Source of the DNA: Pycnopodia helianthoides
Lineage: Eukaryota; Echinodermata; Asteroidea; Forcipulatida; Asteriidae
Reading direction: 5' to 3'
Assembly (NCBI GenBank): GCA_032158295.1
Contig: CM063243.1
Span: 13,174,931 to 13,238,930 of the forward strand
Length of the DNA: 64,000 nt
Shown: piece after piece, positions 25,679-48,534 of the stretch
Layout: every line of letters begins with the position of its first letter
How positions within the stretch are numbered: the stretch's first letter is position 1
Translations under genes and position numbers: made by a program
Notes under the pieces: generated by a model
Told to the model about the DNA's origin: nothing
Databases searched by the model: none
Seen by the model: only the letters and a program-made list of their open reading frames with translations

Positions 25679-28600
25679 TCACATGATCTTCTTGACTACT
25701 ACAGAGATTACCGAGCCGATCGCTAGGCCAGCCGACAGGAAAAGAGCCATCATCACACCGGCAGTCTCGCTGTGTTTCGATTCAACAAACCTATAAAGAC
25801 ATCAAACATGAGACAATCGTCAGTTTTATCTATAGGGGCCTAGACTTTAATCATGTTGCAGGTATCTTATTTATCAAACGAGGGTCACCAAACCAAGGCT
25901 GGAAGGACAATAGTTAGGTCCTTTTTCAGCGTAATAAAAATTAGTAGACGTGATTTATATGGTTGACAGGGGACAAGACAAAGATGGAATACTGTTTGCG
26001 AACCTAACAGCTTAATGAATTTAGGTTTTAGTAACAGACGAATCTGTAATGGAGACTGGATTGTCACCATTTTCTACACTGCGACCAGTGTAACTTTGTT
26101 CACACTCCAGGTATGTTATAATGTTTACACAACTACGCCAAGCAACAGCCTACTGCAAGTGTACTTGTCACCCAACTCGCCCTTTGCACGGTCAGCCGTT
26201 TGCGTGTAGCACCTCGATTTGGGGACAGCAGTGAATAGAAGCATTACATAACTCTGTTATGACACGGTAGTGTAATGACACTTTCATCCAAACGGATACA
26301 TTTATACAATACAAATGGGTCCGTGCAAGTAGCGAATAATGGCGGTCCATTGACCTCTGGCTTTGTCTATAGGATAGGCAATAAAACACACATTCGAAAC
26401 TGAACACAACTCACTTTGGCCCATAAATCATAATCAGGCTGCCTAGGTACCCGTTGGAAAGACCGAACAACGCGTTGAAGACAAATGGGTAGGCGTCATT
26501 GTTGAAGACTACATTTGAGAGCTGAGTTGCGGGATGGATGTTGCAAAATGCAAATAGTGGAAAGAAGACAACTCGTACCACGCTGAGGATACTGATGAGG
26601 ATCATGTTCTTCTCAGTCGGCTGACAAGTAAACAAACAAACAAACAAACAATTGGTGATGATTGTTCACTGATGACATGTGACTCTATCAATTCATGAAT
26701 TTTTATAACTACTACAAAAACTGTGTTCGATATTACATTTAAGATTACAAAACAATGATTTCTACGGTAGGCAAACATTCTGAAATAATATAGGCACTCT
26801 GAGTTCCAACTATGACATTACATTGTTGGCCGAGTGCTGTAAAGTCCCAATAATAATAATAATACTTTTACAACAAATTTTCCATATTAAAAAAGATAAA
26901 ATGCGCCCTTACAACTGAACAAACTAAAATATTAAAGAACAGATATAGAAATAAGACAACAATACCAATAGCAAACGAATACCAACAAAAGTTAAAACAC
27001 ATTCTGAAACCACACCCTCATATAGAGACATCATATCTGCAAGGCCTAATCATCTTACAATGATTATAAATAATATTATACACAAAAATGAAATACCACA
27101 TATAAATTTTTTGCATACCCGAAAGAATGCTCATATTTTTCAAACAGTTACTTTGGGGAAGGTATACCACCAATAAACTCAATTTACTACAAATGCATAC
27201 ATATTGCACTGAACCAGTGTCATAGGGGATTTTGTTACCTGGTGTGTGTCCCCAAGGCCATAGATTAACATGGACTGAAGGAAGTCGAGTCAAAAGAGGA
27301 CACTATAAGACGAAATTTCTACACAATTTGCCTTACAGAGGACAGAATCTCCAGGGGGACAGAATCTCCAGGGAGACAGAATCTCCAGGGAGACAGAATC
27401 TTCAGGGAGACAGAATCTCCAGGGAGACAGAATCTCCAGGGAGACAGAATCTCCAGGGAGACAGAATCTCCAGGGAGACAGAATCTCCAGCCACACTGGC
27501 AATATGTACATATAAAGTTTCTGAAGAATGTTTTGCTATAATATCCACTCGGTCTGCTGAGCAGAAATTACCAGGGACCAGTGAAAAAAAACATGCGTGA
27601 GCTGTGGTCATGGCCAGTTACCGGGGCCCAAATTCATGGCACTGCAATTACCACAGAATTCTGCATTTACGGCTCCCTGTAAAGCATCTGATTTTATGGG
27701 CCGTTAACGCCAAATTATGTGGTAAGCAGCTCCATGGGACCTGCTTCTTACAAGTCAAGGCCCAATTTCATTAAAGTTGTGAAGCAAAATAAATTGCTTA
27801 GCACAGAAAATATCTTGCTAAGCAGAAATAGTTTACCAGCCAAAATACCACATAATGTGTATTGTTTGTGACTGGTTCCCTGCTAAGTCTTGTGGCAGAG
27901 CGGTCTGGCGCATCATATTAAAGTTCTCATGGCCGAGTCATCAGAGTGTGGGTTCGAATCCCGGTTTGACACTTGGGCCCTTTGGCAAGACACTTAACCA
28001 TCATTGCTTCTCATCACTAAGGAGTAAATGGATACCTGCGTGGGTAGTGATTGTTGTTGTGAATGAATGGCAACCTGTGCAACCATTCGGTTGCCGGTGC
28101 TACACACTCCAAATGGAGTTGAGGATGTTGCAGAAATTCTTAAGGCCCAGTGAACTGAGTCAGTAGTAGTGGCACTTTGATACAATGGGTTTTAAATAAA
28201 GTGCCCAATAAATGCCTATTGACCCCTTGCACAACGCGCTGCGCACTTACACGCACCCATCCTGTCCGCCATTTTGGGAGTCAAAATATACACAAAGGAA
28301 TTTACCCCCAAAATGGTGGAAGCGCATTGTCCCTTTGGATAGTGCTTTGGTTCGCTTTTGGGCAATCCCTAGGCTTCTGTTTGCTTTTTCTGTATTTTTG
28401 TTATGTCTCTCATTGTCTTCCTAATGTTTTTAAATCCTACATTTTCTGTTATTGTTGCTGTGTGTTTTTGATGTTTTTAAAGCCTGAAAGAATAAATAAA
28501 TGAATAAATAAATAAATAAATAAATGCCTCACCCATTGAATCACTGAGAGTGACCTTCCGGTAAAATCCATCAGGTTAAAGGTTAAGAAACACATCACTG

Positions 28601-29212: not shown

Positions 29213-32200
29213 AAAGAAGACACTTACTGGCCCAGTATTTGTTAGTTGTATTAATGGCTCCAATGGATGATATTGTGGCTGGAAATAACGCTAGCGTCAC
29301 CGCAAAGATGATTAAAATCATCAAAGCAGGAATCTTAATCTGTAGATGGAAAAGACAACAAATGAATTCTTAAAGAATCTGTCCAACTTTGAATCATTTA
29401 GTCTTATCATCCAACCAACAACTGATTTTGAGTGTGACTGTGCAGCTGTTGCCTAAACCTGGGCCCAATTTCATAGAACCGCTTAAGCAGTAAATATTTC
29501 TAAACAGCTTTCTGCAACGCAAAAATGAGCAGGGTACCAGTCACATGATGTGCAAATTATTTTTTGGCTGATAACCTCATTCTGGTAAGCATAGTTTTTT
29601 TGTACTTGGCTCCTTTTAATGCTAAAGCAGCTCTATCAAATTGGGCGCAGGTTGGCTGTCAGTTCTACTGACAAATCAAAGCGATATTCATGTGCTGCCA
29701 TTACTGGGTAGGGCACTTTTCCCTTATATTGTGTCCAGCTTTCATTAAGTACGCATCAAAGGCATCTTGGACCAATGATGTTGATGCAACCGTTCCATGA
29801 TGCCAGCCTGACACAAGATAAAAACCTGCGCACGATGCGCATGCTAGCAATATGCGTCCAAGTTTGGCCTTTAAAAAAAAGGGTCTTATAAGTTAACCAT
29901 TGAGGCAAACAGCTTTATTGATTATAAAAACCTTTTGAGTACGTATACTTTTCCTGTTAATAAATACTTCGAAGAGAGATGGTATGTCATTATTTATCAT
30001 TAATCATTTGTATTAAATTCATTGAATTCAGAAAAAAAGTATAAAATTTCTCATCCCTAAGTTATCGTAAAAAAATTGAAAAATACCTCACCTTCCAAAA
30101 GATTTCATAGAATGGTGGTCTCTGATGGTGTTTGACCTTCTCAAAACTCTCAGTGCTTTCCAGATCCTTAATCCGTTTAGATTTGGTTAAATCAGCTGCA
30201 AATAAAGAAATACAAACACCGGCCTGATACTTTATCCTTGTCAAGGCAAGGCAGTTTTGCTTTATTATGGGGCAACTCTAAAAGGGATTGAAAGTTTGTA
30301 CTGAAACATTTCAAGGGGGCACCAAGTCAATGACCAGGGGAATGAATGGAGATAATTGCCTCCATTGGCTCGGAGTTCTCCATGTAGTATCAGGCTAGCA
30401 AACAACTTTAAAAACTCACACCTACTGCATTGTACTCTGAATGGCACACCGCACTAATGCTAAAAAAAGAGGTTAAGTGCCCGCATCTCAAACAACGTGT
30501 CAAATTCCACTAACGAACTGGTATGTACAACAGGGGCGGATCCAGGATTTTTTAAACCGGGGGCACAACGGTCCAACCAGGATTTACTTTCAGAGGGTAA
30601 AAAAAAAAAAATGGGTGGGGTCCAGGGGCGAAGCCCCGGTGGGGGTTTCAGGGGGAGAAGCCCCCTGAAGCTCTGAGCCTTCGGCGTTCTGTGGGGTTAA
30701 AAATCAAGCCTCCATGTGCATAAAACAGAGAAATAGACACACTCTTGCTGGAAATCAGATCCATATAAATCTTCTAAATTTACTGAAAAACTTTCTGTTA
30801 CATCGATAGTGTGAGTCCAGGGGTAAAGCCTCGGTGGGGGTCCAGGGGGCGAAGCCCTCGGAAGCTTTGAGCTTTGGGCATTTTGAGGGGTGAAAAACCA
30901 AGCCTCCATGTGCCTAAAACAGAGAAATAGACACACTCTTATTGGAAATCAGATCCAAGTTTACTGGAAAAATTTGGGTAACATCGATGGTGGGGTCCAG
31001 GGGTGAAGCCCTGGTGGGGTCCAGGGGCGAAGCCCCCAGAAGCTCTGAGCTTTTGGCTTTTTGAGGGGTGAAAAATCAAGCCTCCATGTGCCTAAAACAG
31101 AGAAATAGACACACTCTTATTGGAAATCAGATCCAAGTTTACTGGAAAAATTTGGGTAACATCGATGGTGGGGTCCAGGGGTGAAGCCCTGGTGGGGTCC
31201 AGGGGCGAAGCCCCCAGAAGCTCTGAGCTTTTGGCTTTTTGAGGGGTGAAAAATCAAGCCTCCATATGCCTAAAACAGAGAAATAGACACACTCTTGTTG
31301 GAAATCAGATCCATGGATCTGAACGCTGCAATATCTGGTTTTATGCACATTCATTCATTAAAAAAATATAGTTCAAGCTAAGTGTAGTCTTTACACTTGA
31401 ATGCCAGAACGACATGAAATATATTTTATCCAGGACAAATTGGCACGTCAGGTTTCAAACACTTACGTTATCATGCAAATCTAAGCAATTACAAGTGACA
31501 TATCATGAAAGATTCATTTTGGCAGAAAAAACAAAATTAGGATGAAAAAGAAATCCATTTTTTTTTTTTTTTTTTAAATTTTACCCGGGGGGTGGCCCCC
31601 CCCCCATGGATCCGCGCCTGTACAAAGTTCAAGTTTTTGGTTTACTCGCGTGCACCGACTATACTACTAGTGTGGTTTGGCACACCAATGAGGCGGTGAT
31701 CGCGCAAGTGATGGAATTTTTGTCCGACAGCCGGGTATTTTGAGCAAAAGTGACGAAATTAGTGCAGAGTGCTCTGAAAACCTTAAAGTGAGTGCTGGTT
31801 ACACTAAGGCATGGCACATTTTTAACTATTTTACTGTTTTCTCCAAAGTGCAATGCCCTGGGGGAGTCAAAGTCCTTGATCTCCTAGACTGGACCATTCC
31901 ACATGTCTAAGAGGGGGGTCACTTCCCAGAGTTGTGTACGGTAGTTTTCTTTTTGAGAAGCTGAAAAACATTTTCACTCATAAACTTCAAAATTGTGCAG
32001 ACATACAGGCCTACCCAGATCTAACCCTCAGATAAAGTGGAGCCATTTGCTCTTTGTAGCAGGCTTCCAGATGTTTTGCAGACAGCCTGTGCTAGGTTCT
32101 GAGGTTTCCATCATCCCTCCCCCCTGCCAATCGGACTTTTTGGCTAACTGGGGAGCCAGTAACAAGTGGAACCTTCCTGCGTTTGTGTAATTCCTAGGGA

Positions 32201-38200: not shown

Positions 38201-41200
38201 AGGGAGAAAGGGTTAACTGCCAACAATGCCCCTAAATTGGCAATGTTCATAGAAAAGTGTTTGGGGTTGAACAAAGAAAAATTGTCTAGAGTGGGATTTC
38301 AACCCACTACCTCCAGATTAACGTGCCGGCACTCTACCAACTGAGCTATCTAGCCCTATGTTGGCAGTCTCCCTATTTTGTCAATATCTTTGTCCAGGGG
38401 GGGCAGTCAGAAGCCATACAAGAAGCCAGGGATCACACCCAACTATACGATACAACCTGGGAAGCGGCAGCCAGGGGATCACCTTAAGGGGGTGCAACTT
38501 TTTTATTTAAAATTTATTTAAAGTTTACCAAGTCAGTTTCCCTTGTGGTCAAAAACCAAGTGATTAAAAATGCCGACCCAAACAGTCTTTCAACTCATAT
38601 CCCAAAATATTTCCCTTATGTTGAACAATAACCACATTAGCTTTGACAAGACTCATGCACTAAAAAGAAAAACCACAAAGTAGGAAGGCACAAAAACAGG
38701 CTAAACTGATACTTTTCCCTTGTGATTTCATTGTAACCGATACTTGCATTACTAATGCTCATCCTCAATGAGACTCAAGATTACACCCTGCCTATATGGA
38801 TTTTTTCCACAGGAAAATCTACAAAATGTCTGAAGTAAGTAAAACAATCTGATTATAAACATGTTGCTTCTGTACAGAATCAGTTTGGCATACAATTAAA
38901 AAAAAATCTTTTATGTGGCTTGTTCCTTTGTAGAAAAACAAAGTATCAATTGAATCGCAAGCCCATTTTTCAAAATAATTATGTATATATACATAATTAT
39001 TTAGAAAAATGGACTTGTATATCTACATGTTTAAGTTATGTAGTTATTATACCGACTTGTTTTTGTTTTATTTCGCTTATCAAAATTGCCTACAATTTTT
39101 AGGCTGTTTTCCACTTTTTTGATACTTTGTACATGTTTATTTCCTCTTTATTGTTCTACGTTGTGATGTTTGTATGTTTGTCTCAGGGTGGGGGGAAGCG
39201 GTAGGGAGAACCTCCTCAATTTCCAGGCTGTTGCATTTTGGAGGATAATCGGACTCTCAACAACTTCAGCACAAATGCAACAATTAACAAAAGAGATGTT
39301 TTTCTTCCCTCAGTGGCATAGCCAGGGGGAAAACAGGGACATAAGCCCTGGGTGCCAATTCGAACCATTTTTTTAAATAATTGTTTCCACTGCTTGTTTT
39401 TTCCTTTTACAAGAATGATATCCACCTCAGGACTGTGACTAATATCTATGCTATTTGGTTATGTTTATCACAAATAGTTGATCTCATAAAAATGCCTCAT
39501 ATCTCATAATAAAAACAAAAAGGCAAATGAAGCGGCACCATCCTCTAACCTCGACCGCCATAAACCCTAGCTAGACCACTGTCTTCCCTTTCTGGTCAGT
39601 TCATGTATTTCAAGAAATTTTCGAAGGCAGATCAAAAAATCCCAGAAACCTGGAGAAAAAATAAATAAAACAAGCCTGATGTATTGACGGTTTGTGTCAG
39701 GACATTTTTCTTTGCATTTGCTCTTGCATTAAAGTATGAACCAGGCTTGGTCTGCACACATCACATCAGACAACAGCTAAATTGTTTCACATAACACAGA
39801 GGGTTCTTCCCCGAACTACACTCTTGCTTCCTTACCTGTGCTGCAAAGCTAAATTTAGCAGCATGATCAAAATATTTGGGACCATGGCTGCAACAGCGAA
39901 GTAACTCTCAAACATCATCTGTAACTGTGTGCTTTCATCCAAGTTGGCTGTGTAATTACTCGTCGTGTTGCGAAGCTTGTAACTGAAGTACTGTTGGAGA
40001 GCACATTGAAATCGATTAGAAAATGTACCCGTCATTACTTCAACAAAAAATGATAGCGATTGGAATAAAATGAAGAGCAACATTTTTGCAAAAATTTAAA
40101 AGCAACAGCTGGATATGATTACATTCTGCTCAGTAATCAGTGTAATTGCTCCCCCCTTTAGTAAGCCATTTGCCAGTTAGATTTTGAATACTGTCTGGTA
40201 CAAATGACTTGCTTGGTAAAAATTGAACACTCAAATGGAATTCCCCAGACTAAAGACGGAATTGCTTGGTCACATTATTATTATTGTTATATATTTCTGA
40301 ACGAAACCAAGGATGCCTTATAAGTGAACTTAATTATGTCGCCAAATTTAGCTATATGCTGCTATGATATTTTTTCAATAAATAAAACCATAAACCAAAA
40401 TAAAATCACACTTCGACATGACATCACATTCCGATTAAGGAATGAACAGATCCATAATTTGAAACTTTCTGTTGTGTCTTGCTTCAAAGGGAGGAGGTTG
40501 GGGCCAATGTGAAAATCCCAGGAAAATGCAGGGCTCAATTTTGGGCGAAAAATCCACAAGACCACAGGGCTAGTAGCTCAAAATGTTTACTGGACCAGAA
40601 TTCATTTTACAAGACCAGAATCAAAATGAACAAAAACTTCCCGAGTCCTGGCAACACTAATTTAACTGTTTCGAACAATTAAGCACCAAAGACATGTCAG
40701 AGAAGATTCATCTCATCTGTCTTTTGGGGTATTAAGTATACTTCATTACATAGAACTGAAAGGTATTTTACCAGACTCAAAATCAACATTTGAACAAATT
40801 TGTTTCTATGAGGTACATGTATTGTTACTAAACTGAAAAACACAAGACCACCGGACTTGTCCACTCAAAAGTTTACTGGCCCGATAATGAAACCACTGGC
40901 CTCGGGCCTGTGGTCCAGTGTCAAATTCGAGCCCTGAAATGGATTCTGGGACTGGTCCCTTTTATTCTAGACCCAGAACCTCTTCAGATGTTACATTTTC
41001 AGGAGGTTTGCAGACGCTGTGCATCACCAGATATAAAAAACTACAGGTTTGGACACAATGTGGACTATTTCTTTCTCCCTGTGGCAATTGCTCTTCTTCT
41101 TTCAAGAAAATTTGAAGGCTCAAGGAGATTTTGAGAAAGTCCTGAAATCAGGAAAAAAAACTGAGAAATCACACGCCTGTGTTGAACTGAGCAGTGGTTT

Positions 41201-44200
41201 TTGCTATAAACACTTCCTTTTCAAATGAAGAAGCATCCATGACATAATTGCTTTCTATTCAGTTATGTAACTTCAGTTATGTAACAAAAATAATGAGAAA
41301 TCTTCACATAAATGAACACTTTGCAACAGAAGTGATTGCCTCCATCTCCTGAGTCGTTGTCTTGGTGAAATATTCTTTTTTATAAATATCTGCTACCCTA
41401 AAGGACAATCCTCTCGGCAAGAGATTTTGTCACATGTGCACACATTTGCTGCTGTACATGAACGTGTACGCACAAGGCTCTGGTTACTCACAGCTCCAAA
41501 GCTAGCGTACATTTGCTTAGTGTCTATGCCCCCCAAAAATCACTAATTCTATCGCTGAAAGGCATTTCTTGTAACATAAAATTAAGGTGCATGCAATTCT
41601 GAGAGGAGCTTGAGACTTTGCAAAATAATTTGTGAAAGGCAGGTCAAGGGAAAATTTTTATTTTTTACACATAAATCCGCAAAGAAAAACTAACCCAATG
41701 CATTTCCTATGAGCTTCTTGCAATAACACTCTGCACTATTGACGTCACTTTTGCTCGAAACACCCGGCTGCTAGAAAAACATTCCACCACTTACCCGATC
41801 ACTGCATCATTGGTGCGCCAGACCGCACTAGTGGTACAGTCAGTACAGGTGAGTAAACAAAAAGCTTAGACATGTATGCGCGCATACGTTAGTAAAACTT
41901 GGCCTGTTGTCTGAGTTCCGGGTACTGAGCACCTATTTTTAGCATGAGGGCAGAGTGCTTTTATTGAGGAGAGTTATCAGTGAAGTAAGCATGGCCTGTA
42001 CAGTTGAACTACATGCATGCCAGACTTACGATACCGAGTAGGTGCTAATAGACCCCCTTGCATATGATGTCACAAGCTCAAACAGCGCCCTCACTGAGGT
42101 CAAAGGAAGACCTATCCTTGGCTGAGAACAGTGCGTGGCATGTTCACAGTGTGCATTTCCATTGTTTGACCTCAGCGATGGGGGCCTATGCAAGGGGTCT
42201 ATTGCCCTTAAAACTTGCACAAGAATAAAATATCAGACCTGCATGTACATGCAATAAAAAGCCACCGATGGAACTGACCTTTCTTTTCGCTGCTTCAGCA
42301 CAAAAAGCAACTACACTCAAAACAATTTTGCTAACCAGAATAAGGTGACAAACCAAGTACCATGTTTTATATACCGTTTGCACCTTGTATCCTACTCATT
42401 TTTACTTAGCTGTTAAGCAATATTTTCTGCTAAAGCGTCTCTATGAAATCGGGCCTTGTAGACTGGAAGGTGGAAAGTAGGTCATGAAATAGAACAAGGG
42501 GAATTTCCAACCCTGTAACCTGGATGTATTTTCACGCAATCGGTAAACAATACATCAAATAATTTGTGTACCACATTCTAGAGAGATTAAACGGGTGAGA
42601 GTCATTGCTGACAAAAGGGTCTGAAACTAGGTTCCAAAATTTCAGGAGGTATGGTCAATGGCATTTCAACATGTTGGCAACCCCTGGAGTTATAGAATTC
42701 AAGGAGCTTTTGGACACAGTATCTGCAGGACTAGGGAAGCAGAGCAAAGAGCAAGATTTCATGAAATGAAACAGTCCAGATTTTGCCTTGTGATTATATT
42801 CTGCGACAATGCACTCACATGCATCCATGTGTGCTATCATACACAATGGCAAATTAAAAGGCATAAAGAACCGCCAAACTGTGCACAAAAAATCAGCAAT
42901 CAGACGTCGTTGACCACGGCTGCTTACCCTTACTGCTGTAATGAACATGTTCCATGGTAGAACTGAACATATCCCCATTGTAAAGCAAATAATGTAGACT
43001 ATGTTGTACCTAGAGCCATGTGGGGTGGAAGAGAGAACATGGTTATCTGTTAGGATGAGAGGAACATTAAGGGGACAAAAGAGTGAATGTAACGGGCTCA
43101 CCTCGGTAGCTGTGATGAACATATTCCACGGCAGGAGTGAACACATGCCCAGAAGGAAGAAGACAAAATACACAATGTGGAAACTGAGACCGAAGAAGAA
43201 AAAAAATTATAAACAGAAAAACTTTGAGCAAAACAAAAACAAAAAACAAAAGCTCCAGCATTTACTCCAAAGCAGTGACAAGGCACCATTTATGAAAAGA
43301 AAACTTTGATTAGTCATGATAAGAGAATGATTTTTAACCATGTAAAGCTTAATCAAGTAACAAACTTGATACCAGTCCAAATAGTCCGGTATCTGTGTGG
43401 AATACCACGAATTGCAAGAAAAAGTAGACACAAAAACTTGACAACAAAAAAGGAGAAATCCCCAGCATTCAAACAAAAGCTGTGAAAAGGCACCATTGAT
43501 GGAAAGCAAACTTAAAGAGATTGGTCATGATAAAAAAAGAATTTCCCTGTAACGGAAATAAGGAAATACATGCAGAACTTGGAAAAAGTTTCATATTGCA
43601 TCAGAAGTTAAGATACTTCCTTCACCCCACTACATAGTGTATATTTGTTTCATTTCTTCTACTTCTGCTTTTTCTTCTTTCTTTCCTTTCCCGTTTTTGT
43701 TTTTGTTTTTTTTGAGAGGGAGGGGGTATGCTTTTTAATAAACACACAATGTAGATTGTTGGCCGCATTTTGAGAAAACGAAGATGCTAATTTTGATCTC
43801 ATAATCAGGCACCAATTTTGCTTCATCACGCATTACCCCTCCTTCTGTCTGTCGCAATAGACTTTTACCATGGTGCAGCCATCTTGTCTTTCTTCCATTC
43901 AAATCAGTGTAACCAAATTGAGGCTGGAGGAGAAAAATAGTCTGGTCCCTTTTTATAAATTGGCAAATAATCCTCACAGTGTCATTGTGTATACAGGGAA
44001 TCTGACAAAGATGGTTGCAGTGTGATAAAGGTATACACATTGCACACAGTTTTTATGTTTAAGGGTTCGCTACCCATACAAGCTAACTTTTTTGTAAAAA
44101 TAAAAGGTTACAAAATATAAATGCCCAAATTACAGCGGGGGTAAAAGGTAGAAAATTCACCTTCAAAGTTGCATCGCCCAAAACTCTATGTTTTCTCTAA

Positions 44201-45131
44201 ATTTAGACAGATAATGCTGTTTTAAAAGAGCATAAAAATATTCTTACGTAAAAATGTCATGCGCAATGCACAAGATAATTTTAACATGCAAATTGTTTGT
44301 AAACATGGTTGATGGTAACACGAGATAATGCCGGCCCTGACAATAACTCATCTGTATCCTTTAACTAACTGTTAGTAACCATTTAACGCATTTACTCAAT
44401 CAGTGTCTAAACTGAAAGTTTATAACTTCCTCTAAACTAAAGGAATAATATTTTAATCACATTTTTATCGGCAAGAAATTGGGCAATGCATCCTTAAAAC
44501 ACACACACATACACAAATGATGAAGCGAGCATGTCAAAAAAGAAATGCAATATCGATGATAAATTCACAGGAAGTCACGTGAGCTGTGAAACCCTTGTAC
44601 ATGTAGTATCCTTTTTGAACAGTGGCTTGTAACATCCTGGTCAAGGAAACAATGCCTCGTAATAACAGCTTGATCAAAGACTGACTTTAGTCACCCAGAA
44701 CACACTGTTCATGCATTTCCCAAAGTCATTCCCTCGTATAATAATTGGCAATTCCACACAAATGGGCACAAAAGTGTGACATGGGAGAGGAACATGGGAA
44801 AGTAATGACAAAATGAAGTCATGTTTTTTGTCTGTGTACATTCAAAGGCACATGAGGATTGTGGTTGAAAAAAGGGGTAAATTACTGAGTATTTAAGAAG
44901 CTGGAGGAAATAAATCTTCAAAATTTATACGTTTGTAACAAGGACAGACATTTTTGTTTATCAGTGGAATGTACTGGAAATGACTGAGATTTATAAAATA
45001 GTTACTTTCGTCTCACCCTCCCATGACTCTCTTACAAAGTTATCCTTTGGCCCATTATTGTGGAAGTGTCCATTATTATTTTGTTTATATGACTTTCTTG
45101 CATAGTCCTGGTGCTCAGGTACATTTGCCAT
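25679..45131 (-). CDS. Equilibrative nucleoside transporter (ENT, SLC29 family)
   Basis: ENTs carry nucleosides across membranes by facilitated diffusion through 11 helices. Exons in transcript order: 45036-45131 (start), 43102-43183 or 42928-43009 (helix 1), 39836-39990, 37647-37741, 35669-35719, 33884-34018, 32314-32442, 30092-30195, 29228-29339, 28533-28615, 26415-26620 and 25679-25790 (stop). From helix 1 onward all phases agree and give 421 residues before the stop; with the N-terminal exon about 452, the family norm. Seen: LPWNMFITA (helix 1), sequons NTT and NYT in the first outer loop, DEWQTGFF, FQGSVFGVAG and MSGQGMGG (helices 4-5), a hydrophilic central loop with KSKRIKDLESTESFEK, PVMCFLTFNLMDFTGR (helix 8) and GLSNGYLGSL...YGPK (helices 10-11). 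The helix 9-10 region (VVFNNDAYP) recalls ENT3 and invertebrate ENTs more than ENT1. The paralogue is undecided. The junction of the first coding exon to helix 1 is out of phase. Confidence 0.95.
27339..27490. repeat. Second 17-bp minisatellite, about 9 copies
   Basis: The unit GGGAGACAGAATCTCCA is repeated about nine times in an ENT intron. Each unit contains GGAGA and TCTCC as inverted arms around CAGAA, so each copy can form a small hairpin. Because 17 is not a multiple of 3, all frames cycle through the units and long open frames appear on both strands; these are not genes. The sequence differs from the 17-bp repeat at 1974. Confidence 0.95.
27886..28225 (+). repeat. tRNA-derived SINE, family B, second copy
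   Basis: 'gtggcagagcggtctggcgcat' (box A region) and 'gtgggttcgaatcccgg' (box B) precede 'aagacacttaaccatcattgcttctcatcac', 'taaatggatacctgcgtgggtag', 'gttgccggtgctacacactccaaatgg' and a tail GTGCCCAATAAATGCC. The layout is that of 24272-24709. It is intronic and antisense to the ENT gene. Confidence 0.85.
28490..28526. repeat. AAAT microsatellite beside an ENT splice donor
   Basis: A run of (AAAT) ends seven bases into the intron that follows the helix-8 exon. On the transcript strand the donor reads TGG|GTGAGGC and is followed directly by ATTTATTTATTT. Confidence 0.9.
29166..29210. repeat. TG/CA microsatellite beside an ENT splice donor
   Basis: About 22 TG dinucleotides. On the transcript (minus) strand this is a CA run starting 18 bases after the donor of the helix-7 exon (GCCA|GTAAGTG at 29228). 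CA runs near donors are known hnRNP L binding sites in vertebrates; a role here is inference. The histidine-threonine open frames in the run are artefacts. Confidence 0.95.
29461..29650. repeat. GGGCCC-type element, degraded
   Basis: The left end GGGCCCAATTTCATAGAACC and right end 'aagcagctctatcaaattgggc' are inverted. The interior has 'aatgagcagggtaccagtcaca' and 'ggctgataacctcattctgg'. It is intronic in the ENT gene. Confidence 0.8.
30531..31620. mobile_element. DNA element with inverted ends, 5-bp TSD and tandem core
   Basis: The left end CAGGGGCGGATCCA and the right end TGGATCCGCGCCTG are inverted with one mismatch. TACAA flanks both sides (30526-30530 and 31621-31625), a plausible 5-bp target duplication. 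The core has about four tandem copies of a ~178-bp unit (GGGTCCAGGGGTGAAGCCC ... AGACACACTCTT ... ATCGATGGTG). There is no transposase ORF. It is non-autonomous and intronic in the ENT gene. A fragment-like G-rich relative may be present at 39311-39365. Confidence 0.85.
31625..31850 (+). repeat. Dispersed repeat, inverted copy at 41715-41880
   Basis: 'gtttggcacaccaatgaggcggtgatcgc', 'gccgggtattttgagcaaaagtgacg' and 'agtgcagagtgctctgaaa' recur in reverse complement at about 41715-41880 ('tgacgtcacttttgctcgaaacacccggc', 'cgatcactgcatcattggtgcgcc'). Opposite copies in the same ENT pre-mRNA could pair. Confidence 0.75.
32668..33065 (+). repeat. Dispersed element, second copy at 40520-40937
   Basis: It starts 'agggcttgattttagagggaaaatctgcaagaccgc', has 'tttactggaccagaattg' and 'aaaacacaagactgccgga', and ends 'taaattttaagccctgg'. 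The copy at 40520-40937 has the same blocks with ends CAGGGCTCAATTTTGGG and 'aaattcgagccctg', inverted. It is a non-autonomous DNA element, intronic in the ENT gene. Confidence 0.75.
33525..33795 (+). repeat. tRNA-derived SINE, family A, second copy
   Basis: The head is 'gtcgcatccccttagggtgatccc...gggtgtgatccctgg'. The tRNA-like part has AGCTCAGGTGGTAGAGCG (box A) and GGTTCAAATCC (box B). The tail is 'caatttttctttgttcaacccc...cagtttcccttgtggtttattac'. There is no acceptor-stem pairing, so it is not a functional tRNA gene. Confidence 0.88.
34555..34702 (+). repeat. Dispersed element related to 61127-61385
   Basis: 'gggctcgatttaacaaagagttcagacagattgatct', 'ccaatctcaattgctaagc', 'gatgtcacaatacaaattactatgg' and 'ttgctttgtgaaatcgacccc' give inverted outer ends. 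The larger copy at about 61127-61385 has the same half-sequence plus a mirrored half. It is non-coding. Confidence 0.7.
34792..34937. repeat. About 145-bp MITE, 'gctgccacctag' family
   Basis: The left end ATGGGAGACTTTTGAACGCT, followed by AGATGGCAGCAGACATACCAGG, is mirrored by CCTGGTAAGTCTGCTGCCAC and ending AAAAAGTCCCCCAT. The interior is tiny and has no ORF. A second copy, split by another element, lies at 61085-61825. Confidence 0.85.
35315..35485 (+). repeat. Dispersed repeat, family of 6780
   Basis: It contains 'gtggccgaattggcggcaatggctatgg', then 'catgcgttgaagcatcagctgccctaagg'. Two tandem blocks of 'cttagcaacagctgcagccgtagccac' follow, and a terminal 'caaattcagacacggcc' inverts the start. 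It is intronic in the ENT gene. Confidence 0.75.
36240..36430 (+). repeat. Dispersed repeat, family of 4262
   Basis: 'gacggtcatggcttctgccttggtgtccttgaaaagtttccatgaactta', 'gaagtgccctttgcaacatgaaaaagg' and 'ccaggtctgatgttcatgtaca' match the other three copies. The neighbouring stretches 36431-37020 and 34940-35310 show no gene parts that I can see. Confidence 0.75.
37024..37480. repeat. Composite of two GGGCCC-type elements
   Basis: The left end GGGCCCAATTTCATAGAGC at 37025 and an internal right-end-like 'tgcttaagcagctgtttcatagcgctgc' at about 37190-37215 are followed by a second body of the 24710 type ('gcgtatttcacaggttagc'). The final right end 'agcagctctatgaaattgggccc' is at 37478. It lies next to the helix-3 exon of the ENT gene. 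Confidence 0.75.
38255..38500 (-). repeat. tRNA-derived SINE, family A, reverse copy
   Basis: On the minus strand: a head ending 'gggtgtgatccctggc', the tRNA-like part 'gctagatagctcagttggtagagtgccggcacgttaatctgg', box B GGTTGAAATCCC, then 'caatttttctttgttcaaccc'. On the plus side a stray 'accaagtcagtttcccttgtggt' tail follows at about 38527-38550, apparently from another truncated copy. Confidence 0.85.
42046..42205. repeat. 160-bp MITE with AATAGACCCC ends
   Basis: The left end AATAGACCCCCTTGCATATG and the right end TATGCAAGGGGTCTATT are inverted. Subterminal blocks also pair: 'ctgaggtcaaag' with 'tttgacctcag'. It has no ORF. It lies about 700 bp beyond the second helix-1 exon in the same ENT intron. 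Confidence 0.85.
42928..43009 (-). CDS. ENT helix-1 exon, copy 2
   Basis: The acceptor CTCTAG|G and donor AGG|GTAAGC bound 82 nt: one base completing a split codon, then 27 codons, YNIVYIICFTMGICSVLPWN...AVR. It shares 16 of 27 residues with copy 1, the same length and the same phases (in 2, out 0). Including both copies would shift the frame because 82 is not a multiple of 3, so the two must alternate. Position 33 by human ENT1 numbering is Ile in both, as in ENT2; Met there favours dipyridamole sensitivity in human ENT1 (published mutagenesis). The last residues, AVR here and ATE in copy 1, swap charge at the mouth of the first outer loop. Confidence 0.88.
43102..43183 (-). CDS. ENT helix-1 exon, copy 1
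   Basis: The acceptor TTCGGTCTCAG|T, with a long pyrimidine tract, and the donor GAG|GTGAGC bound 82 nt, reading FHIVYFVFFLLGMCSLLPWN...ATE after one split-codon base. The end ATE followed by YFSYKLR from the next exon is the family pattern, so this may be the ancestral copy. Only 92 bp separate it from copy 2. That intron has no stop in frame, so retention would still yield an open product carrying two copies of helix 1. Confidence 0.9.
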
Positions 45132-45152
45132 GGTGTGCTAACTTCTCATGCA
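45036..45152 (-). CDS. ENT first coding exon
   Basis: A strong acceptor (CTATTTGGTTTACAG) at 45153 is followed by 21 nt of leader and ATG at 45131 in excellent context (CACCATGG). The 32 codons MANVPEHQDYARKSYKQNNN... end PKDNF at TTT|GTAAGA. A short hydrophilic N-terminus ending in P-x-D is typical just before ENT helix 1. The donor is in phase 0, whereas both helix-1 exons need phase 2. Up to GAT AA the exon would fuse perfectly (D-K-Y-N or D-N-F-H). An unseen small exon, an unusual donor or a sequence error is therefore required. Confidence 0.7.
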
Positions 45153-45952
45153 CTGTAAACCAAATAGAACAGCTTTCATTAACATGAATATTAGACTAAT
45201 GAGGAAATAAACACAGCGTTTGTGAGGAACAAACACCATGTAGATTTTTGTGCCGGCATAATTACACTTTCCCCACCATTGGCAAAGAGACATTGAACTG
45301 CATAGCGCTTTCTATAATGTCCAGAAAACTACATGAACTCTGCAGTTGATCATATAAACAAAAAATGGATAAAAACATAAAACAAACAAACCCCCGAACA
45401 AACAGAAAACAGGCATTGTCACAAACCAAAACTACATTACTTGTAAAAGGAGACTTAGACTCAGATTAGAACCCTAACCAAGAAATGCCAGTGAACAGTT
45501 TCCTTTTTATGGCGTAGCAAAATGCCATGGAAAATGTATTCAGTTGAAACTCGAATGGCACAGGGGCTAACTTGCTATTCAATGTTGGCATTCAGAGTGC
45601 ACAAAAACATTTTCAGTTCAAATATTTTGCTATACAAAACTGCTGGACGAAATCATTCCAGGAATGATTCATCTTTAAAAAAAATAATAGTATGCAAGCA
45701 TACTTGATGAGTGTCAGATATCAGACGATGGTACTTGTTCAGTGCCCCACCACTGGTAAAATGACTGCACTCAAGCCAGGGGTCCAGTTATTATTTTTTA
45801 TTAGGCCTACTTTAATACGGTTTGTTAACAAAAACATATGGTTTGGCAGCCACTTGTTTGCAATAGAATGGTATCAATTAAAAAAAAAAATCCAGTCCTG
45901 CTAAGTCACAGGTGGACTGTAGAGAATCAAGTATGACTTCCCTTGCTAAACT

Positions 45953-46147
45953 GGGCCCAATTTCATAGAGCTGCTTAAGCACAAAAAGTAGCTGAGCACA
46001 ACAAAATTAGGCTTACCAGAATAAGGTTACCAGCCAAACTGTCATATCACATATGTACAATTTGTAACTGGTATCCTGCTCATTTCTGCTGAGCAGGCAA
46101 TTGCTAAGCAATATTTTCTGCTTAAGCAGCTTTATGAAATTGGGCCC
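45953..46147. repeat. GGGCCC-type element
   Basis: The inverted ends are GGGCCCAATTTCATAGAGCT and ending AGCTTTATGAAATTGGGCCC, about 22 bp with few mismatches. The interior is 'aggttaccagccaaactgtcat' and 'tgctgagcaggcaattgc'. It is non-coding and lies in the presumed first intron of the ENT gene. Confidence 0.88.
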
Positions 46148-47737
46148 TGATAAGCTTAAACATGCAGCCCATTTGTCAACACACCGGTCAAGGTCTGCAT
46201 CTGTTTGATCATTTTCAAAAGTTCTGTCTACCTTTGTAACAACGAACTTGGATTGAACTTGGATTGACCCACCGTGTTAGCTATAGAGGGGTGTCTGGGC
46301 CGTGTACATGTATGAGACAAGCTGTTATCAAGTCCGATACCCTGCTTCTGTTACTTACATAAAATAAGTATTGGATATGAACAATTTGGATCGCCTGTTT
46401 TTGAATTTCCAGAAAATCTGGACATCCACTTTCCAGGTCCTGGCTATTAAATGCATTGGTAAAATTTTTGGTAGAGGAGGGCAGTTAGCATGATGATTAA
46501 ATGCTTTTAAACTAGGCCTATTTTACATAAAAATGTGTAGAGCTGTTAAAATTACACTGTAATGTATTATCTATATTCTAAATTGAAAAAAGAACAACTT
46601 TTGAAACATTGACACTGTATTCAAGTCAATACATGGGTTCAAAGCTGACTTCCCAATCTTTATTTTGGTTGCCGCTTGCACTTCCATTTTAAGGGTCATG
46701 ATAAACCCTGCCAATACGCAGTCAGAAAATTAGGCAGATTTAATTGGCCATGGACTAAAGGTGCACCTGCTGATCAGTGGTGAGACTGTACAACAATTGA
46801 CAAATCTTGAAAGTGGTTAGCAGTCTCCTTTTAATAATAAACCACAAGGGAAACTGACTTGGTAAATTTTAAATAATTTTGGGTTGAAGGAAATTCTGAC
46901 TAAGTAAATTGCAGAAAAAGCTGTTGGTTTTGTTGTTGTTAAATTGAGGATTCCTGTGCATCAAATACTTTTTTTTATGGCAACTTGTGCTGGTCGGTTG
47001 ATGTGAATTAAAACAAATAAAAACAACAAAAAACACAAAGTTGTGTTGTGTTACACAACCCTTCCATCAACAACCACTAGCATGACTAGTGTCAACTAAA
47101 ACATTTATGATTGTTATGACAAATTAAGAACCTTTGGCTGTAAATTTTAGAAAGCATTTCACTATTTTCATACTCTTTTTGAGTCTTGCCGAATCATAAA
47201 AAGATGTAATTTCTTTCACATTTTTTAGCCCAAACCACATTATGATCAACTTGTGATTCTAAATGTTTACTGACAGACCATTTACACAATTTCTTTTATA
47301 GCTTTGCTGAATGTGCAAAAAGTGACATTCCAAAACACAACAGGTGAATTACGTGCTTTGCATCGATTGTGAACAAATTCAATGCTTTAATTTTACTTTT
47401 CCTACATGTAGGCCTAACCTGATTTTTAAGATAACAAAGTCCAGATGTATTTCCTACTCAAGAGGTTTGATTACAGATAAAAGGAAGATTTTAGAAGCCC
47501 TCGGTATGGAGTGGCTTGATTTGCTATCAACACCTCTCATTAGGCCTTAATGTGATAAAAAAAAATTCATACTGAAACCAGAGCATTTTGACCTTTGATG
47601 TACTGCCACGTTTTGCCTGCAGATTCTCATTCTACTGGTTTTTTTTCAGAATGGTTAAATTCTAAATGGGCAATTCCACACTAATGGGCCAAAAGATACA
47701 AAAGAGTAAGACAAAAGTAACTATTCTGTCCAGTCTT
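46148..47737. other. No gene seen; SINE tail fragment
   Basis: This AT-rich stretch lies in the presumed ENT 5' intron. A reverse SINE-A tail (TAATAAACCACAAGGGAAAC) lies at about 46835-46890. No exon with splice signals and family resemblance was found. Confidence 0.5.
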
Positions 47738-47890
47738 TTCTAGATAGATAGCTCAGTTGGTAGAGCGCCGGTACGTTAATCTGGAGGTCGTTTGTTCAAA
47801 TCCCGCTCTAGTCAATTTTTTTTTGTTCAACCCCATACTATTTATAATTTACCCAGTCAGTTTCCCTTGTGGTTCATTACTTGACAGTCT
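47738..47890 (+). repeat. tRNA-derived SINE, family A, 5'-truncated copy
   Basis: It starts at the tRNA-like part TAGATAGCTCAGTTGGTAGA, followed by 'gcgccggtacgttaatctggaggtcg', 'gttcaaatcccgctctagtca' and the usual tail through 'cccttgtggttcattac'. The head present in other copies is missing. Confidence 0.88.
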
Positions 47891-48534
47891 TTTCCTGTAC
47901 ATTCTAAAGCTGTTCCTGATTCTTCATAGGACTCAGGGAAAAGTATTTAGTTTAGATTGCTTAACACACATAGGTGTGTGTGGGTAAAACACTTGAAATT
48001 CCTTATCCCATTCTCGATGCAAATTTAACATTTTAAAAAGTAAGCAGGGCATTGCCCAGAAACTGAACGTTGTTGATTTCATTATGTTACCGGTCTTTAG
48101 GTGCCTGTGCATCATCTAGCCTCCTGCATGCACCATGGTTGGTCGCAATATCTGTGGATGCTATCAGATGATCATCCTCCTCATTATTATCTGATATGTA
48201 TTCATCTTCAAATTGAGCCGCAATGCCGTTCAGGCTGCCCTCTGCTGGAGCCATCATCTCTTGGGTACTGGATCGCTGTTCAACTATTCAACCAAATGCT
48301 GCGGGACAGAGAAACAACTTTATGAGTGTGTTTGAAGAGGTACTATTCTGGCCTGTTGTATGGAGACTACAGGGGCCATGACCCTGTAGCTCAGGTTTAC
48401 TGAATTGCTTTCCAACTATTCACTCGGAATCTGGAAGAAAAACAACTTTATGAGTGTGTTTTAAGGGGTAATGTTCTGGACTGTTATGTGGAGAATACAG
48501 GGGCCATGTCCATAGCAAAGATTTACTAGATTCA

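Follow-up and report, generated by a model that had tools for sequence, protein, structure and literature searches.

A Pycnopodia helianthoides gene that is, from its family match, an equilibrative nucleoside transporter (ENT) of the SLC29 type, with predicted transport activity, carries two adjacent, homologous exons for transmembrane helix 1, here called A and B. These exons are most probably spliced in a mutually exclusive manner, such that one gene would give rise to two 476-residue transporters with different versions of helix 1. The exon pair was confirmed as real rather than a chance similarity, and all coding exons of the gene model lie within the window, the 64,000-nucleotide stretch of DNA analyzed here.

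Gene model and the duplicated helix-1 exon

Each of the two isoforms scored 249.5 bits against the family profile PF01733 of Pfam (cut-off 29.8), isoform A matched the solved structure of human ENT1 (6ob6) over residues 51-474 with an E value of 8e-76, and the helix-1 signature of SLC29 proteins (PWN, Gly22, and Ala35) was present in both. A protein search scored 7998 candidates, of which 338 were homologs with E values ≤0.001; residue counts were made on the best 120 of the 338, mostly fish ENT3 by name. The nearest protein among these was the Asterias rubens ENT1-like isoform X2 (P0001), 82% identical over its full length, followed by isoforms X2 of Acanthaster planci (P0002) and Patiria miniata, both 60% identical.

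For the gene model, the minus strand was read and exons were linked according to frame and GT-AG sites, and the result is a closed model: each transcript has 12 coding exons with GT-AG sites throughout, and the coding sequence with either A or B runs from start to stop over 1431 nt (Table 1). The first coding exon, E1, is followed by the donor gtaaca and fits both A and B, the split codon reading Arg with either, and the N-terminus that it encodes is included in the likeness to the A. rubens protein.

Table 1. Coding exons of the ENT gene and the intron between the two helix-1 exons (window coordinates)
Feature	Coordinates	Strand	Details
E1, first coding exon	48257-48091	minus	starts ATGATGG, ends PKD + CG, phase 2
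E2A, helix-1 exon version A	43183-43102	minus	82 nt; phase 2 at its start, phase 0 at its end
A-B intron	43101-43010	minus	92 nt; candidate branch point CTAAC
E2B, helix-1 exon version B	43009-42928	minus	82 nt; phase 2 at its start, phase 0 at its end
E3, shared	39990-39836	minus	frame + GT-AG model
E4, shared	37741-37647	minus	frame + GT-AG model
E5, shared	35719-35669	minus	frame + GT-AG model
E6, shared	34018-33884	minus	frame + GT-AG model
E7, shared	32442-32314	minus	frame + GT-AG model
E8, shared	30195-30092	minus	frame + GT-AG model
E9, shared	29339-29228	minus	frame + GT-AG model
E10, shared	28615-28533	minus	frame + GT-AG model
E11, shared	26620-26415	minus	frame + GT-AG model
E12, last coding exon, stop TGA	25790-25679	minus	frame + GT-AG model

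The original prediction had apparently taken an exon ending at 45036 as the upstream partner, and E1 replaces it. The ATG exon at 45131-45036 was rejected on two grounds: it reaches its gtaaga donor in phase 0, incompatible with both A and B, and its 3′ part and donor lie inside a dispersed repeat (∼45086-44995). A genome query with 44990-45131 scored 40 places including itself (of 47 candidates), the others matching ∼45086-44995 at most, and the repeat is thus present at at least 39 other places in the genome. It holds a PKDNF stretch and a donor that imitate the ENT N-terminus, seemingly by chance. Two further repeats were seen by eye within introns, namely a short tandem array of GGAGATTCTGTCTCCCT units at 27360-27485, between E10 and E11, and repeated CTTCGCCCCTGGACCCCACC units at 30580-31350, between E7 and E8, the latter resembling a degraded mobile or satellite-type repeat.

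The model and the profile scores bear out the prediction of two adjacent 82-nt helix-1 exons separated by 92 bp. A and B are equal in length and phase, have AG/GT at all four borders, and are identical at 53 of 82 bases and at 16 of 27 residues, leaving 29 base and 11 residue differences; adjacency, homology, and equal length and phase are features of mutually exclusive homologous exons. The last residue, where the first outer loop begins, changes from Glu37 in A to Arg37 in B, as had been claimed. Also as foreseen, the two exons cannot be combined in frame: joining A to B, or skipping both, produces a frameshift and an early stop.

A helix-1 profile of 27 residues, made from nine sequences with A and B included among them, scored 107 and 100 for A and B, respectively; no other place in any of the window's six frames scored above 22.9. 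No third helix-1 copy was found in the window by either the profile or an ungapped scan. When the peptides of the 11 other exons were scanned ungapped against the three minus-strand frames, the best second match was 30, vs. 100 for the helix-1 copy, and the helix-1 exon was the only exon of the gene found doubled.

Elsewhere in the 479-Mb genome, a pattern of PWN plus the following residues, which helix-1 exons with other residues would escape, occurred at three places, A, B, and one paralog at C1:12543926, and the reversed pattern had no match. In the close paralog (C1:12543875), the helix-1 exon is likewise 82 nt long, agrees in phase, and is present as a single copy; no second helix-1 exon was found there in 59.4 kb at C1:12.54 Mb (39.6 kb on both strands and 29.7 kb on the plus strand). 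In the more distant C3 paralog, 19.8 kb contained no convincing helix-1 exon, the best-scoring stretch (35) being downstream of a C-terminal exon. Human ENT1 (SLC29A1) has a single helix-1 exon, unlike the doubled exon described here.

Selection on both exons and their counterparts in other starfish

The comparison of A with B gave a dN of 0.26 and a dS too high to compute, which is taken as saturation; so the duplication appears to be old, and both exons have probably been retained under selection. Differences between the two fall 8/5/15 on the three codon positions, with the first exon base set apart. Copies of A were also simulated under neutrality (n = 200,000), each altered at 29 of the 82 sites; the fraction that remained open with ≥16 identities was 0.0006, and none of these preserved the LPWNMFITA block as well. 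Six helix-1 positions are invariant across the best 120 of the 338 homologs (Tyr15, Gly22, Pro28, Trp29, Asn30, and Ala35), and A and B retain every one of them, the 11 positions at which the two differ lying elsewhere.

Helix 1 of Acanthaster X2, a predicted isoform with one residue fewer in this helix, is nearer B (18 vs. 16 of 26 residues), and the B residues Cys18 and Val36 each occur in one of the best 120 of the 338 homologs, both times this same protein. Asterias X2 is nearer A by a small margin (21 vs. 19 of 27) and contains a mixture of A-like and B-like residues, and Patiria X2 is also nearer A by a small margin (19 vs. 17 of 27). The Ser at the Asterias split codon and a four-residue insert in Patiria X3 would be compatible with an exon whose first base is T, as in A, and not G, as in B. 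This Patiria X3 isoform (P0004) differs from X2 in the insert, SPSS, before helix 1 and in a missing stretch equivalent to E6, and not by a B exon. The insert points to an alternative acceptor located 12 nt ahead of the A-like exon.

In a tree test on 27 residues with seven hand-chosen trees, the topology that groups window A with Asterias and Patiria, and window B with Acanthaster, scored best of the seven. AU values of the other topologies ranged from 0.0415 to 0.193, including 0.043 for a species-specific duplication and 0.106 for a forcipulatid-only duplication, which was not rejected; SH and KH tests rejected none of the seven. An ancient split between A and B is thus weakly favored by the topology scores.

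Helix 1 is also less conserved than the rest of the protein between starfish (21/27 vs. 337/393 for window A and Asterias; 17/26 vs. 303/387 for Acanthaster and Patiria) and more conserved between two sea urchins (23/27 vs. 283/401). The lower conservation in starfish is a hint only, because 10% of the 27-residue sliding windows between Acanthaster and Patiria (n = 366) are no more alike than helix 1. Both exons were not found together in another species among database proteins, which comprise one protein per 90% cluster; a search with the 142 N-terminal residues (region 49-140) for a fragment carrying B gave one candidate and no match, and one with helix 1 and its flanks (isoform B, region 50-105) gave two candidates and recovered only Asterias X2.

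Taken with the Acanthaster protein, these comparisons suggest that the A/B pair is old in starfish. It is possible, and we propose it tentatively, that starfish have kept a two-way ENT helix-1 switch since before the split of Asterias and Acanthaster, yielding two transporters that would be made in different cells and would differ in how they handle purines or respond to inhibitors.

Splicing of A and B

The 92-nt intron between A and B is short relative to the other introns of the model (612 to 4907 nt). In its best predicted branch-point candidate, CTAAC, the adenine is 52 nt away from the exon A donor and 40 nt short of the exon B acceptor. According to one study, efficient assembly in vitro requires that donor and branch site be ∼50 nt apart (PMC6692369), and steric exclusion is therefore plausible rather than certain, since 52 nt is at the reported limit and not below it. 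With the branch point at this spacing, joining of A to B would be inefficient. Any messages that included or skipped both exons would presumably be removed by nonsense-mediated decay. The frame argument has exceptions: in a human catalog, 377 of 629 clusters of mutually exclusive exons (60%) would break the frame if joined, and joining reads are still found for 83 of the 377 (22%; PMC5740500). Given those reads, a broken frame makes mutual exclusion probable without guaranteeing it. The equal phase, the broken frame, and the 92-nt gap of the original argument, together with the equal length and the marks of selection on both exons, lend good support to mutual exclusion; the steric block, with its predicted 52-nt spacing at the limit, is the less certain part.

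Weight-based donor scores were 10.2 for A and 9.0 for B (range in the gene 4.7-11.4), and the pyrimidine fractions of the acceptors were 0.88 and 0.69 (range in the gene 0.69-0.88). With its higher donor score and more pyrimidine-rich acceptor, A may be the default exon, and B would then need a regulator. The same figures could mean that only one exon is in use, the other being a relic that fell out of use recently and has yet to decay, since B has the less pyrimidine-rich acceptor and the slightly lower donor. This is unlikely: both B sites score no lower than sites seen elsewhere in the gene, A and B are open and in phase with four intact splice sites, their dN and saturated dS argue for retention, and a B-like helix 1 is present in the Acanthaster database protein, a predicted isoform.

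The two exons might instead belong to transcripts with different promoters and first exons, the choice being made by transcription start and not by splicing, and the 4.9-kb intron before A leaves room for another first exon. Such an arrangement is very unlikely, given that A and B both need a phase-2 upstream partner and E1 fits both, and that the one candidate examined, the ATG exon rejected above, is in phase 0 with its 3′ part in the dispersed repeat. Scarcely credible is a poison exon, by which the frameshifted message with both exons or neither would be a regulated outcome and then destroyed: both combinations do give early stops, but B encodes a full, conserved helix 1 that a poison exon does not need, and a B-like helix is found in the Acanthaster protein.

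For mutually exclusive splicing of A and B, a docking-selector arrangement was also sought; no such pattern was seen among 11 inverted-repeat pairs in 39800-48300, assessed without a chance control, and pairs I4 and I9 overlap the dispersed repeat. Just upstream of A on the minus strand is a local direct repeat of ∼100 nt, 75% identical (43238-43333 and 43443-43544). A genome search with 43200-43335 found only itself and missed even the neighboring copy, so further diverged copies may exist. The direct repeat could be a regulatory element or the trace of a further tandem duplication whose exon was lost.

Proposed helix exchange and comparison with known systems

Human ENT1 (6ob6, 6ob7, 8tzi) is of the same family, and its helix 1 aligns without gaps. 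With Gln158 as the anchor for numbering, hENT1 position 26 is Leu in A and Val in B. The PfENT1 mutant L50C, at the aligned site, grew slowly and showed no uptake in a 15-min assay, and was still killed by 5-fluorouridine. In hENT1, Leu26 and the NBMPR purine ring are in hydrophobic contact (PMC10729961). Val occupies this position in 9 and Leu in 111 of the best 120 of the 338 homologs, so both residues are tolerated in ENTs; eight of the nine Val26 homologs are named as echinoderms, and helix 1 of the ninth (P0006) is one residue off that of Diadema. The Leu/Val difference is not a lasting one between A and B in starfish, since the A-like helix of Patiria has Val.

Because A and B differ at the hENT1 Leu26 site and have Glu and Arg, respectively, where the first outer loop begins, we infer that the helix swap may tune substrate or inhibitor handling, and the two isoforms could have altered selectivity. 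If both are made, they amount to a natural helix-swap experiment in a drug-relevant family of transporters, in which a substrate-lining helix is exchanged and the rest of the protein stays the same, and their comparison would reveal which residues of helix 1 set purine preference or inhibitor binding.

The exon-swap device is of a known kind, and no report was found of its use in the ENT family: a search of openly available literature, judged by the titles and starts of abstracts listed, found none of mutually exclusive exons in an ENT. In the human catalog, mutually exclusive exons are likewise neighboring and homologous with equal length and frame, SLC25A3 and SLC39A14 being named, and exons for membrane helices are argued to be unlikely as plain cassettes (PMC5740500). 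The transporters named there belong to other families, and the catalog is validated by RNA-seq, whereas the A/B pair is known from sequence alone. If both isoforms are made, an ENT would join the transporters tuned by exchange of one membrane helix. In two known pairs, exons 4a and 4b of OGDH (PMC7969005) and the two exons of alpha-tropomyosin (PMC6692369), the exons are prevented from joining by branch points that lie close to the donor of the intron separating them; in both, the branch points are reported as found, whereas the candidate in the A-B intron is predicted, at 52 nt, on the edge of the reported limit.
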